A stretch of DNA of 64,000 nucleotides, from the NCBI RefSeq assembly GCF_002868715.1, contig NZ_PKLZ01000012.1, forward strand, positions 62,001-126,000. Direction: 5' to 3'. Source of the DNA: Kineobactrum sediminis. GTDB taxonomy: Bacteria; Pseudomonadota; Gammaproteobacteria; Pseudomonadales; Halieaceae. The notes under the pieces are model-generated. The model ran no database searches. It had not been told where the DNA came from and saw only the letters and a program-made list of their open reading frames with translations. This document shows, piece by piece, positions 57,983 through 63,615 of this stretch. A program made the position numbers and the translations under genes. Within the stretch, counting starts at the first letter, position 1. Each line of letters opens with the position of its first letter.

Positions 57983-59755
57983 TTATCCCCCACTTGCGGC
58001 CTTGGGATACGGATTCGGGCCGCCGGCTTCGATCCATGCATCCAGCTGGGCCTCAAGCACCGGCAAGGGCACCGAGCGCAGCCCCAGAATCAGGTCGTGA
58101 AAATGGCGTTTGTCAAAATCCTGCGCCAGCGCGGCTTCCGCTTCCCTGCGCTTGCGACGGATCAACATTTCCCCCAACTTATAGGCCAGGGCCTGGCCCG
58201 GCCAGGAAATATAGCGGTCGATTTCAGTGGTGAGCTCGTGTTCTGACAACGCCGTGTGCTCGCGCAGGAATGCCTGCGCCCGCTCCCGGCTCCAGCCATA
58301 ATGGTGCAGGCCCGTATCAATCACCAGACGCGCCGCCCGCCACATTTCATAAGACAGGCGACCAAAGTGTTCGTAAGGGGTGTCGTATACGCCCATCTCA
58401 ACCCCGAGCCATTCGGTGTACAGGCCCCAGCCTTCACCATAACCGGAAAAGTAATTATTCGCCCTGAATTCCGGGATAGCACCGGGCCCCTCCAGGGCTA
58501 TCGCAGCTTGTAGTGCATGCCCCGGCGCGCATTCGTGAAGAGTGAGCGCAGTCAATGTGTACAGTGGCCGCGAAGGCAGGTCGTGGGTATTGAACAGGCA
58601 ACTTTCCAGGCCACCGCGACCGCCGGTGTAAAACGGCGCTATGGCATCGGGCACCGGCAGGATGGTAAACCGTTGCCGGGGCAGGAAGCCCAGGGTAGCG
58701 CCTAACTGGCCGTCCACACGCTTGGCCACATATGCGGTAAAAGCCAGAAGCTCATGGGGCGTTTGCGCGTAGAACTGCGGATCCGTGCGCAGGAACTCCA
58801 GAAACGCCGGCATATCGCCCTCAAAGCCGGTTTCGGCTTTGGTTTGCCGCATTTCCGTCCGGATACGCGTCACTTCCTCCAGGCCCACGGCGTGAATTTG
58901 CTCAGGGGTCATGTCCAGCGTGGTATAGCTGCGGATCATGGCCTGGTAAAAAGCCGGGCCGTCGGGCAGGTCCCGGGCGGATAGCGTTTGCCGGGTATGG
59001 GGCAGGTATTCCTCTCGCATGAATGTCAGCAAGGTACGGTAAGCCGGCACCACGGCTTCGGCAATCGCCGCTTTTACCGCAGACTGCAGGCGGGTACGGC
59101 TGGCGGCGGGTATACTTTCGGGCATGGCCGCCACAGGCCCCCAGAATGGATTTTGCTCCGCGGGAGCCAGGTAGGGCTCAAGAGACTGTTCACGGCCTTC
59201 CAGGGTAATGCGAGGCACGCTGTAGCCCCGCCCCAGTCCGGCGCGCATGTTGCTTTGCTGCTCGCCAAAGAAGCGCGGCAGATCGCGCAGCCGATCAACA
59301 TAATCCTCATAGGCCTGCTCGGAATCGAATCCTCCCATGCGCGGATGCAATCCGCTCCAGAAAAAGGTATCGGAATTTAAAGGCGCTTCCCAGGTGCGGT
59401 ACCGGGCGTTATCAGCCAATGAAGTAATAATCTGCTGAAACACCGCAGCGTTGATCTGCTCATCGGTACTGAGTTTTTCCCGGGGTATCCGCGCAAGCTC
59501 TGCCAGGGTCTGGTCCCAGTAGGCAAGCCGCCCGGCTTGTGATTCCGCATCCACCCGGGGCAGCCCGGCCCCTGCTCGCCAGTGGCCGTCACCGGTACGC
59601 ACCTGTTTCAGTTCCCCTTGTCGCCAGGCAAACTCGGTCTCGTACAAATTGCGCAAGCGGGTGTCCGCATCAGGCTCGTGAGTTTGAGCGAAGACCGGTG
59701 CTGCCAGCAGCAGACACAGCACTATCAGCGCAACAGGGTGAACATGGGGGTTCAT
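57983..59755 (-). CDS. DUF885 secreted metallopeptidase-like protein
   Basis: 590 aa with signal peptide (ending VFAQ). HECAPGH (residues 407-413) is the metal-binding motif typical of DUF885, and ALAYKLGE and GPGAIPEFRANNYFSGYGEGWGLYTEWLG are family features. It is probably a zinc peptidase acting in the periplasm. Cleavage target unknown. It follows the C39-like gene by 42 bp, so it may be transcribed with that cassette. Confidence 0.88.
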   Translation of the reverse strand: MNPHVHPVALIVLCLLLAAPVFAQTHEPDADTRLRNLYETEFAWRQGELKQVRTGDGHWRAGAGLPRVDAESQAGRLAYWDQTLAELARIPREKLSTDEQINAAVFQQIITSLADNARYRTWEAPLNSDTFFWSGLHPRMGGFDSEQAYEDYVDRLRDLPRFFGEQQSNMRAGLGRGYSVPRITLEGREQSLEPYLAPAEQNPFWGPVAAMPESIPAASRTRLQSAVKAAIAEAVVPAYRTLLTFMREEYLPHTRQTLSARDLPDGPAFYQAMIRSYTTLDMTPEQIHAVGLEEVTRIRTEMRQTKAETGFEGDMPAFLEFLRTDPQFYAQTPHELLAFTAYVAKRVDGQLGATLGFLPRQRFTILPVPDAIAPFYTGGRGGLESCLFNTHDLPSRPLYTLTALTLHECAPGHALQAAIALEGPGAIPEFRANNYFSGYGEGWGLYTEWLGVEMGVYDTPYEHFGRLSYEMWRAARLVIDTGLHHYGWSRERAQAFLREHTALSEHELTTEIDRYISWPGQALAYKLGEMLIRRKRREAEAALAQDFDKRHFHDLILGLRSVPLPVLEAQLDAWIEAGGPNPYPKAASGG

Positions 59756-59797: not shown

Positions 59798-60508
59798 TCA
59801 TTGCATGGTAAGCGGCTGGTGGGGGAAGTCAACGCGCACCAGAGCGGCCGAGCGGGAAATCCCAAAATACGCCTGTTGCGGCTGCAGGATACTTTCTGCA
59901 AAGGGCGCCAGAAGAAGAACGGTGCCAGACGCACGAGGATCTTCGTCGGCAAGCCACAGCGACAGGAACGCCTCGCGATCCAGGCGAATATTACCCCAGG
60001 AAGGATCCGCCAGCTGTACCTGACCCCGGGTATTAACACCGCGCAACAAGCTGAAATGAGGCACACCGTTCACCTCAAGGCGAACAATCGCCGGCACAGT
60101 CAGGGCAAACAGCTGTTCGGGCGCCAGGGCCAGCCCCAGCCCACGCAGACCGTGGTCTTCTGCCAGCTTCAGCAACACAGCATAGGATACTCCCCGGGCG
60201 CGCCAGTCCTCCGCCAGTGCCCATTCATCGCCACGTTCAGCCAGGCGCTCCAACAGCGCCTGCTCCGATACCGGCGATTGCAGATAGAATGTCAGGTAGG
60301 TTGCCAGCGCAGCAATGCCGCAGGAAAAATCCAGCGTCTGCCTGACCACACCCTGGTCGCGCAGCGCCACCCAATTGCGAAAGCCCTTTTCTTCGGCGGC
60401 GGCTGGCGGGTTACCCAACAACAGGACCAGCAACAGCAAGCCGCACACTCTATGGCAAAGGCCAGGAGGCTCAGAGCAGGGAATCGGGCGGTATATAGTC
60501 GGCATCAT
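59798..60508 (-). CDS. C39-like cysteine peptidase (FapD-like)
   Basis: 236 aa. Signal peptide (a hydrophobic run LLLLVLLLG, about 23-32) then a C39 fold. Cys63 in DFSCGIAALATYL, His151 in VPHFSLLRGV and Asp168 in ADPSWGN are the catalytic residues. No ABC transporter domain is fused, unlike bacteriocin exporters. Free, secreted C39 proteins occur in Fap amyloid operons as FapD. It overlaps the small membrane protein gene by 38 bp. ATG 60508 or 60505. Confidence 0.85.
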   Translation of the reverse strand: MMPTIYRPIPCSEPPGLCHRVCGLLLLVLLLGNPPAAAEEKGFRNWVALRDQGVVRQTLDFSCGIAALATYLTFYLQSPVSEQALLERLAERGDEWALAEDWRARGVSYAVLLKLAEDHGLRGLGLALAPEQLFALTVPAIVRLEVNGVPHFSLLRGVNTRGQVQLADPSWGNIRLDREAFLSLWLADEDPRASGTVLLLAPFAESILQPQQAYFGISRSAALVRVDFPHQPLTMQ

Positions 60509-60767
60509 GAGGTAACTCGGCGCGCATGTCTTCAAATGCGCACCTGCGACTGAGATAAATCGAAACAGTGCACACCAGGGTCAGGCCCGCCGCAGACAGG
60601 ACAAGAAATACGGCCCCCGGCCAGTCTTCCTTGAAAAGGGCCAGTAACAAGGCAAGCACACTGGTCACCGCGACGCATCCATGAAAAAGGTAGCGATACG
60701 CATGCCGACTTTGCAGTTCTTCAAAACGAGTATCCCTGAGCTTTTGTTCAAGAGCCGGGTCTTTCAC
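60471..60767 (-). CDS. Small two-helix membrane protein, unknown
   Basis: 98 aa with an N-terminal amphipathic part, two transmembrane helices and an acidic tail. No family recognised. GTG 60767 is chosen because a perfect AGGAGG lies 9 bp upstream. The ATG at 60776 directly abuts that site and is unlikely. Overlap with the C39-like gene suggests joint expression. Confidence 0.7.
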   Translation of the reverse strand: MKDPALEQKLRDTRFEELQSRHAYRYLFHGCVAVTSVLALLLALFKEDWPGAVFLVLSAAGLTLVCTVSIYLSRRCAFEDMRAELPHDADYIPPDSLL

Positions 60768-60864
60768 GCGTTGCATCCTCCTGTTTAAAAACCTCTGTTT
60801 CCGAGGCCGGGAAATGCTCCACAGCAGCGTGGTGCAGGACTGCTGCAGAGCGTCGTGCCTAACG

Positions 60865-61194
60865 CTATTGGCTGCTGATCATCGCATCAGTACAGCCCGA
60901 GCAGGAGCCTCCCCCTCCGTAGTTGGGAACATAGACTCCCCAATACATTCCCATCAGCGCCAGATCAACGCCGACTATACTGAATGCCAGAAGCAATGGC
61001 GCCACCTTGCCATCACTTTCGGCAAGCGCATCGGGCGAAAGTACCTCCGCACCCGATGCCACAACATCCGCGCCACCAAAGGCGGCACTTACCCATGCGG
61101 TGTCATCATGTCCGACCGCTGCATTTGCAACGACTGGTTGGGAAACAATAGCAGCCAGCGCTATGCCGACTGAAATGCCTGACAGTTTTTTCAT
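60865..61194 (-). CDS. Small secreted glycine-rich peptide with C-terminal CxxC
   Basis: 109 aa. Signal peptide (MKKLSGISVGIALAAIVS...NAA), a Gly-Gly step at residues 40-41, a hydrophobic stretch (66-89) and the C-terminus YGGGGSCSGCTDAMISSQ, where Cys98-x2-Cys101 is a CxxC. Fap amyloid subunits are known to carry a C-terminal CxxC motif. AAGGAG lies 9 bp before the ATG. It is encoded between the barrel gene and the small membrane protein. It could be an amyloid-like subunit, a secreted bacteriocin-like peptide or a cofactor-binding peptide. Confidence 0.75.
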   Translation of the reverse strand: MKKLSGISVGIALAAIVSQPVVANAAVGHDDTAWVSAAFGGADVVASGAEVLSPDALAESDGKVAPLLLAFSIVGVDLALMGMYWGVYVPNYGGGGSCSGCTDAMISSQ

Positions 61195-61266
61195 GGTACA
61201 TCTCCTTGTACACGTTTGTAGTTCAGCAAGCCTGCGCCCCAAGGCAGGCATATATACACTCCCGGA

Positions 61267-62124
61267 TCAAAAACGGTAAAGCCACTCCAGAACCAGTTGC
61301 GCTGACTCATCGCCACTGGTGCCAATACGGGTATCGACAAACACGGTTGAATGTTCGCCGGCCAGCACGCCCAGGCCAAGATTAAGCGCCGTGCCGTGCT
61401 CTCGCAGCGAAAACGTGGCGTCATTGACTTTTTCGCGCTCACGGATTTGCACGGATACTCCGCCGGTGAGAGTCACTCGGTAATTAACGGCGAAATTCAC
61501 CTGTGGTTGCAGGAAAAACAGGTTACCCGGCTGTAACCGGCCACCGGCGATATCACGCGCGCCGCGCACTTCATAACCGGCTGCCAGAGACAGCACCAGA
61601 GGATCAATGGACCGGTACAGGGTGGCGCCGACACGGCCGGTTTTGCCATGATATTTTGCATCGGGATCCAGCCAGCTACTTTCCAGCACATCCACACCCG
61701 CTGTTAACAGAACCGCCGGCGTGCGGTTTTCCGCCGACACCAGCCAGCTTGCCCCCAATGCCAGGCGGTATTGATCGGCACCACCGGCAAGACCTGGCTG
61801 GCGCCATTCAGCGCGCGCGTGCACGGCGCTGACGTTGATTTCGAGATCAGGTCTTACGCCGTAGCGAAGGCGGCTGGTTGTCGAGGTGACGCGCGTCTGC
61901 CGTCGATTGAAGGCCGGGGCGGCACTGCTAAGCCCAGGGTTCACAGGTATCGGAACCAGAGTCTGGCTATTGCTGTAACTGACCGCCGACTGCAGCTGCA
62001 GGGTGCGCTCGCTGACCAGTAACTCCTCAATGCTGAGAGGCAACTGGGCACTGGCCGTCAAGGCGCCGGTCGCCATCCAGCACCCTGCCAGTACTCTCGC
62101 GGTGGACCCCGATGGAAATGACAT
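61267..62124 (-). CDS. Outer-membrane beta-barrel protein, possibly FapF-like
   Basis: 285 aa with signal peptide (cut near SAQ, about 26-28). After a short N-terminal segment it shows alternating strands with aromatic girdles (e.g. LRYGVRPDLEINVSAV, FLQPQVNFAVNYRVTL, VFVDTRIG) and ends with Phe (EWLYRF), the BAM signal. FapF has a similar barrel, usually longer through a coiled-coil N-terminus, which is absent here. ATG 62124, or GTG 62133. First gene of the cassette. Confidence 0.75.
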   Translation of the reverse strand: MSFPSGSTARVLAGCWMATGALTASAQLPLSIEELLVSERTLQLQSAVSYSNSQTLVPIPVNPGLSSAAPAFNRRQTRVTSTTSRLRYGVRPDLEINVSAVHARAEWRQPGLAGGADQYRLALGASWLVSAENRTPAVLLTAGVDVLESSWLDPDAKYHGKTGRVGATLYRSIDPLVLSLAAGYEVRGARDIAGGRLQPGNLFFLQPQVNFAVNYRVTLTGGVSVQIREREKVNDATFSLREHGTALNLGLGVLAGEHSTVFVDTRIGTSGDESAQLVLEWLYRF

Positions 62125-62241
62125 GTCCTGCACCCCTGCCCAAACTGCCTTGCGTGAGGTACAGAATCGCCTATTACCGACGCCGTTGGTACGTCATAAA
62201 CATCCTAAAAACATCAACTGTGGCAACGATATCCTGGTGAT

Positions 62242-63615
62242 TTACCCGCCAGGGCCGGTAACAAGACGCAGCGGATCGAGCAAAGACTGTAATTCTGCCC
62301 GCGGAATGTCGGTGTCCTCCGCCGCCACATCCAGTACCGCGCGTCCCTCGTGCAACGCGCGTTTGGCAATAGCCGCCGCGGCTTCATAGCCGATCACCGG
62401 GTTCAGGGCCGTTACCAGTACCGGATTCCGCGCAAGGGTAGCCGCGGCATGTTCACGGCAGGGCGCTAGCCCCGCTACGCAATTGGCCAGCGCAGCACAA
62501 CCACCGTCCAGCAACTCGATACTGGCCAGCAGCTTGTCCGCTATCAGTGGCAGCATGACATTCAGCTGAAAGTTACCGGACTGTCCCGCAAGGGCTATGG
62601 TGGCGTCGTTGCCCAGCACTTCGGTCGCCGCCATGAGTACCGCCTCGGGCAGTACGGGGTTGACCTTACCCGGCATGATTGAGGAACCGGGTTGCAGTGC
62701 CTGCAGCTGGATTTCCCCCAGCCCGGCCAATGGCCCGGAGCCCATCCAGCGCAAGTCATTACTCATCTTGATCAGTACCAGGGCCAGCCCCCGCAGTACA
62801 CTGGAACACTCCACACTGACGTCCTGGGATGCCATGCGAGTGGATGGCATCGCCGCACCGGTAAACAGGCAACGGGTGGACGCTGACAATGCCTCAAGCA
62901 GCGCGGCCACATAACCTGTGGGCACATTGATCCCCGTGCCGACCGCCGAGCCGCCAATGGCCAGCGCCCGCAAACGCGGCTGCAGTTCGGCCAGCCGCTG
63001 CTCGCAGTCCAGCAACTGGGCATCCCAGGTACGCAATTCAAAGCCCAGCGTAACCGGCATGGCATCCATCAGGTGGGTGCGCCCGGTCTTGACCACATCC
63101 TCCAGTTCCATGGCGCGCTGTTGCAGTACACTGCGCAGATCAGCCACCGCCGGCTGCAAGGTGTCGCGCAACGCGAGTACCGCTGCAACGGCAATAGCCG
63201 AAGGAATGACATCGTTACTGCTCTGGCTGCAATTGACGTGGTCGTTGGGATGCACGGGCAATGGACTGTTGCCGCCGGCGAGCTGCGCCAGCACCTCGTT
63301 CATGTTCATGTTACTGCTGGTACCAGAGCCGGTCTGGAATACTGACACCGGAAATGCATCGGCATGGGCACCCTCCGCCACGGCATCAGCGGCTTCGGCA
63401 ACCGCCCGGGCGATGCCGGCATCGAGTGCCCCGACTTCGCTGTTGGCCCGGGCGGCGGCCCCCTTGAGCAGGGCGAGAGCCCGAATGAAACGTTCCGGCA
63501 TGGCGCGCGGTGCAATCTGGAAATTATCGACGGCACGCTGGGTCTGGGCACCATAAAGGGCCTGCGCAGGCACTGCCACCTCGCCCATGCTGTCGTGCTC
63601 TATCCGGTCTGTCAT
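62242..63615 (-). CDS. fumC: Fumarate hydratase class II
   Basis: 457 aa TCA-cycle enzyme converting fumarate to malate in the cytoplasm. GSGTSSNMNMNEVLA, KTGRTHLMDAMPVTLG and the signature GSSIMPGKVNPV are all present. Oxidation-stable class II form. CAGGAG lies before the ATG. Monocistronic; the next cassette begins 117 bp downstream. Confidence 0.97.
   Translation of the reverse strand: MTDRIEHDSMGEVAVPAQALYGAQTQRAVDNFQIAPRAMPERFIRALALLKGAAARANSEVGALDAGIARAVAEAADAVAEGAHADAFPVSVFQTGSGTSSNMNMNEVLAQLAGGNSPLPVHPNDHVNCSQSSNDVIPSAIAVAAVLALRDTLQPAVADLRSVLQQRAMELEDVVKTGRTHLMDAMPVTLGFELRTWDAQLLDCEQRLAELQPRLRALAIGGSAVGTGINVPTGYVAALLEALSASTRCLFTGAAMPSTRMASQDVSVECSSVLRGLALVLIKMSNDLRWMGSGPLAGLGEIQLQALQPGSSIMPGKVNPVLPEAVLMAATEVLGNDATIALAGQSGNFQLNVMLPLIADKLLASIELLDGGCAALANCVAGLAPCREHAAATLARNPVLVTALNPVIGYEAAAAIAKRALHEGRAVLDVAAEDTDIPRAELQSLLDPLRLVTGPGG

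Follow-up and report, generated by a model that had tools for sequence, protein, structure and literature searches.

Four genes on the reverse strand at positions 59798 to 62124 of the window, the 64,000-nucleotide stretch of DNA from the marine bacterium Kineobactrum sediminis (Halieaceae) analysed here, probably form a compact cassette for peptide maturation and export, which is related to the Fap systems yet distinct from them. A C39 peptidase would trim a Sec-exported precursor peptide of 109 amino acids (PEP), and an outer-membrane barrel would probably export the product. From the barrel leftwards, the genes encode the barrel, PEP, a small membrane protein and the C39 peptidase, all of them at the positions given in the original prediction. 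The cassette is flanked by genes for fumarase (62242 to 63615) and a DUF885 protein (57983 to 59755), which are also read leftwards. Since the intergenic gaps are only 72 and 88 nt and the small membrane protein gene runs at its end into the C39 gene, a single transcript of all four genes is likely, judged from this spacing. Promoter and terminator scans gave results no better than chance level. The order barrel-PEP-C39 is retained across Halieaceae genera and PEP is under purifying selection, with dN/dS values of approximately 0.06 to 0.20 between close pairs where these could be estimated. The kept gene order, the low dN/dS of PEP and a C39 domain above the Pfam cut-off mark the four genes as more than chance open reading frames.

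The barrel protein (285 aa, 61267 to 62124, reverse strand; open reading from a GTG at 62133) is homologous to FapF. Because a plain HMM search of the PDB found FapF only at E 0.19, structure and profile-profile comparisons were used. The AlphaFold2 model, built with 14 sequences, has 12 strands (pLDDT 83, pTM 0.76), and its best 18 Foldseek matches in the PDB were all FapF, with E values from 4.4e-13 (5o67_B) to 1e-9, approximately 15% identity and TM values up to 0.70/0.72. The next matches were a COG4313 channel and then autotransporters. With hhalign, the barrel aligned to a profile of 15 FapF-type barrels over 259 columns (Prob 99, E 2.9e-18), the alignment beginning past the coiled-coil region of FapF. 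The proposed likeness to FapF thus held in both comparisons, which rule out an unrelated transporter. COG4313 channels (Pput2725) have the same barrel fold (4rl8, E 4e-9), but FapF is the better match, and the barrel of the cassette is linked to C39 and has no match to Phenol_MetA_deg in Pfam. As had also been predicted, the N-terminal coiled coil of FapF is absent: in the model, only a signal peptide and a short helix (residues 30-33) precede the first strand. The signal peptide (residues 1-26, 62047 to 62124, reverse strand) is predicted to be cut before Q27 from the alignment, in which A26 and Q27 are invariant, and from the hydrophobic N-terminus, of which residues 1-27 are modelled with low confidence. 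The barrel family is present in 23 family genomes, with a C39 gene within a few kb in 21 of them; of the two exceptions, G015 is split between contigs and in G138 the match is partial. A FapF-like barrel protein encoded elsewhere (L080:5711-6985) carries a helix-turn-helix-like N-terminus (excisionase-type, by eye) in place of the coiled coil.

The C39 peptidase (59798 to 60535, reverse strand; TTG start, alternative ATG at 60508/60505) is a stand-alone protein of 245 aa with its own N-terminal hydrophobic segment and no fused ABC exporter; it is predicted to be Sec-exported and periplasmic. It matches PF03412 in Pfam at 44.1 bits (cut-off 22). Its expected likeness to FapD was recovered with the NCBIfam FapD model at E 5.9e-17 and 61.7 bits, below the cut-off of 330 bits, and the FilB model was matched at E 2.2e-15 and 56.8 bits, far below the cut-off of 475. 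The active site is intact, the catalytic residues Q66, C72, H160 and D177 being invariant in 24 C39 sequences. Foldseek matches of the model (pLDDT 82) were the leader-cutting double-glycine peptidase domains of PCAT1, ComA and 6mpz. In a quick tree, the deep forks of which are weak and of which only the Fap clade is relied on, all FapF-associated C39 proteins, including that of locus L097 described below, form one group (SH-aLRT 95), and the window C39 falls outside it. The putative Fil pilus of Acinetobacter (FilB, FilC) resembles the cassette in the FilB match of the C39 peptidase and in a FilC model that also matches FapF-type barrels, whereas the cassette scores under the FilB cut-off and has no FilA-like large subunit. 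Larger exported proteins are encoded beside C39 at L211:284-1762 and L213:5360-9691; close to their mature N-termini they have MTDTAMSNATGQ or MDESAMSDVSGQ, which resemble a leader and may be a Fil-type version of the C39 leader signal.

The gene for PEP (60865 to 61194, reverse strand) has AAGGAG approximately 7 nt 5' of its ATG. A signal peptide, MKKLSGISVGIALAAIVSQPVVANA (61120 to 61194), is predicted from a KK n-region, a hydrophobic core in the hydropathy profile and an ANA cut site. It is followed at 61006 to 61041 by the leader motif LSPDALAESDGK, for which the consensus among homologues is L-xxxx-[LM]-xx-x-x-G-[GRKEQA], then the hydrophobic core. The register is that of C39 leaders (L-12, L/M-7, G-2); the window PEP has L-12, L-7 and G-2 with Ser at -4 and Lys at -1. 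Conservation within PEP is highest in the core VAPLLLAFSIVGVDLALMGMYWGVYVP (60925 to 61005), a 27-residue hydrophobic segment by hydropathy (0.72), followed by the leader motif (0.50); outside the core it ranges from 0.32 to 0.50 and is low in the spacer and the tail. The polar tail holds CSGC, a CxxC motif (60892 to 60903), and the C-terminal end reads GSCSGCTDAMISSQ. Besides M1, the residues G62, D77, L80, G86, Y88 and P90 are invariant in 31 PEP homologues. Neither Pfam nor NCBIfam gave a convincing family match for PEP; weak matches to Phr, proteasome and photosystem models were judged to be chance. In some members, the leader region gives a weak match to the class IIb bacteriocin model TIGR03949 of NCBIfam (E 0.004-0.03).

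A cut is predicted after G62 or K63. The Gly-Gly step named in the original prediction is real as a position and reads G-G in many relatives, but the window itself has G-K; among 46 homologues readable at -1, the residue is R in 18, G in 12, K and E in 6 each, and Q and A in 2 each. The C39 fold, the catalytic residues and L-12/L-7/G-2 are common to the double-glycine leader peptides with PCAT/AMS ABC exporters (class II bacteriocins, ComC), from which the cassette differs in a C39 protein predicted to be periplasmic and not ABC-fused and in a Sec signal on the substrate. The Lys at -1 speaks against a C39 cut of PEP, as canonical C39 enzymes want Gly, Ala or Ser there. Cleavage of PEP by the C39 peptidase is likely, at a site placed from the motif.

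In the proposed mechanism, the PEP precursor would cross the inner membrane via Sec and lose its signal peptide. The periplasmic C39 peptidase would then bind the leader through the hydrophobic residues at -12 and -7, to which most relatives add one at -4. It would cut beside the invariant Gly, following either G62-K63 or G62, to yield a peptide of 46-47 residues, consisting of the hydrophobic segment with one conserved Asp and a Gly-rich tail with the Cys pair. The FapF-type barrel would probably take the mature peptide to the cell surface and the small two-helix membrane protein would probably help at the inner membrane, while the product may have a conserved envelope or surface role. Taken by itself, export of the product through the barrel, where one is present, stands at even chances.

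PEP homologues were found in 60 of the 140 family genomes, including 8/8 of genus g9 and 4/4 of genus g7, with one copy each. When 84,980 species genomes were scanned with a pattern, 37 PEP loci were confirmed, and nearly all of them are labelled as Halieaceae or as one of its members (Haliea, Luminiphilus, Pseudohaliea, HTCC2080); PEP was found only in this family, one of the 37 loci being labelled just Gammaproteobacteria. In each of the 35 loci that could be assessed, the C39 gene lies directly downstream of PEP and on its strand, the contigs of the remaining two ending before the C39 position, so that the co-occurrence looked for in relatives was present wherever contigs allow. In the window's genus, the one further genome (G054) has a Fap-like locus and no PEP.

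The small membrane protein (101 aa, 60471 to 60776, reverse strand) has hydropathy peaks at approximately residues 29-47 and 53-75, homologues in the closest relatives and no family match above cut-off in Pfam or NCBIfam. In a bacteriocin- or microcin-like system it would be the immunity factor, with C39 freeing a hydrophobic toxin that the barrel releases. Such a system would agree with a PEP leader like those of class II bacteriocins (TIGR03949, E 0.007), with the hydrophobic core, with the glycine-zipper-like substrate of a relative (L226) and with the recurrence of small membrane proteins beside the substrate. However, in some loci, e.g. L122, PEP and C39 are too close together for a membrane gene to fit in, the core is strongly conserved under purifying selection and PEP occurs as a single copy in every g9 and g7 genome. 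Since PEP is near-universal, single-copy and conserved in several genera, a diversifying toxin is disfavoured; the earlier bacteriocin-like reading was right about the type of leader, but as a whole it is improbable.

Barrel-less loci, mostly of Luminiphilus, retain PEP and C39; export of PEP through the barrel is therefore not needed in all lineages. The barrel-bearing L093 and barrel-less, Luminiphilus-type loci such as L079 and L090 have common flanks, with genes that by eye encode a permease and an M16-type peptidase, which suggests that the barrel was lost in place while PEP and C39 were kept. CxxC was found in 16 of 49 distinct PEP homologues, every one with an adjacent barrel, and in none from barrel-less loci; barrel-bearing loci without Cys in PEP are L069/L101 and L077. 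It is suggestive that the Cys pair tracks the presence of the barrel, in a sample much of which is one lineage. As a defining feature of PEP, CxxC is ruled out, most homologues being without it. PEP might instead remain in the envelope as a membrane peptide with a single helix that is processed or chaperoned by C39, with the barrel serving another substrate or having only a regulatory part. The retention of PEP and C39 in barrel-less lineages, the one long hydrophobic segment with its invariant Asp and the missing Cys pair where no barrel is found would fit such a peptide. The barrel nevertheless adjoins PEP and C39 in barrel-bearing genomes, and FapF relatives export C39-dependent proteins (PMC5557850); a purely envelope-resident PEP is doubtful.

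With regard to Fap of Pseudomonas (FapA-F), the export cassette favoured here is alike in a Sec-exported FapD-like C39 protein, a FapF-type barrel and a FapE-type leader LSxxELxxxRG[GRK] on the substrate. It differs in having no FapA, FapB or FapC, no subunits with N/Q repeats of the FapB/FapC kind among its genes, a barrel without coiled coil, a C39 protein outside the Fap clade, a very short hydrophobic substrate and an additional small membrane protein. The genome of the window has a separate Fap-like locus (L097:2737-7328, G000:C2), encoding a 525-aa repeat-type protein, a FapD-like C39 (E 3.6e-38), a FapE-like protein with ASEEELDGLRGG and, on the opposite strand, a FapF-like barrel (E 2.6e-38). 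Because L097 holds FapD- and FapF-like genes together with a repeat-type protein, the window cassette is an additional system. This locus and the position of the window C39 outside the Fap clade rule out a decayed Fap operon and do not support the 'reduced' system that had been suggested. The same locus tells against PEP as a minimal Fap-type fibre subunit cross-linked via CxxC, as do the conserved core, which is a hydrophobic segment rather than N/Q-rich repeats, and the absence of CxxC from most homologues. The FapF-like barrel, the FapD-like peptidase and the conserved CxxC of FapC, which lies outside the fibre core (PMC6173800), would suit an amyloid; this earlier proposal of a FapB/FapC-type subunit did not hold up and is very improbable.

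With Fap, PEP shares a C39-type leader, the one present on FapE. When PEP was compared with 19 FapE-type proteins by hhalign, only the 19 motif residues (PEP 47-65) aligned (E 6e-5, probability 65%), in the same register. A motif-blind FapE model, built from the region downstream of the motif to avoid selection on it, found 24 homologues with the motif at the same position in 23; the 24th reads VVPEHELANQRGR, which is nearly the motif. Only three columns are invariant in FapE, among them R58 and G59. One motif-bearing FapE-type protein matches the NCBIfam FapE model at E 1e-22, below its cut-off. Among Sec-type neighbours of C39, the strict motif was present in 15/215 compared to 1/156 in the background (both sets pooled; shuffled approximately 0.001), and this test and the motif-blind one are the statistical support for the motif. 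It does not hold as a rule that a stand-alone C39 is accompanied by a leader-bearing partner, as some loci have no recognisable neighbour of this kind. FapA-sized small proteins in Fap loci with leader-like VEDSELHEISGK, VSDSVLHGVNGR and LSESHLAEVYGK were seen at L189:7767-8081, L194:4030-4368 and L198:8740-9072.

FapD is a periplasmic C39 cysteine protease that is catalytically required and needed for secretion, with an unclear target; FapE alone among the Fap proteins yielded no peptides from the mature N-terminus, and the Fap proteins are stated to have no canonical C39 site (PMC5557850). Given this unclear target and the missing N-terminal FapE peptides, the FapE motif provides a specific putative cut site for FapD. 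With the compact cassette, the question of the C39 substrate comes down to a single peptidase and a single short peptide. The leader common to PEP and FapE, with the invariant R-G of FapE, points to one precise candidate site for Fap biogenesis. A general two-step route in gammaproteobacteria, with Sec export, leader cleavage by a stand-alone periplasmic C39 peptidase and passage through a FapF-type barrel, could equally well prove right or wrong; Fap would be one user through FapE, and in the Halieaceae and related compact cassettes the route would serve short hydrophobic peptides that are not amyloid. If true, this route would tell what FapD cuts and where. The comparison suggests that FapF-type pores export more than amyloid.

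That homologues of fapD and fapF lie together in further phyla too had been noted before (PMC6173800). Outside the Halieaceae, five loci (L222, L223, L225, L226 and L227) have a short barrel beside C39, four of them with a small exported protein carrying the motif (LSDQEMKNTEGA, LSHDEMQKTEGE, LSTAEMGEIKGG and MNDAEMAETQGR); the substrate of L226 has a weak glycine-zipper match. Within the family, L093/L094 encode a longer PEP-like protein with a CDTFC motif at its end. The gammaproteobacterium G185 has at least six pairs of C39 and short barrel in one genome, and its locus L227:9-6668 holds two C39-plus-substrate units around a single barrel.
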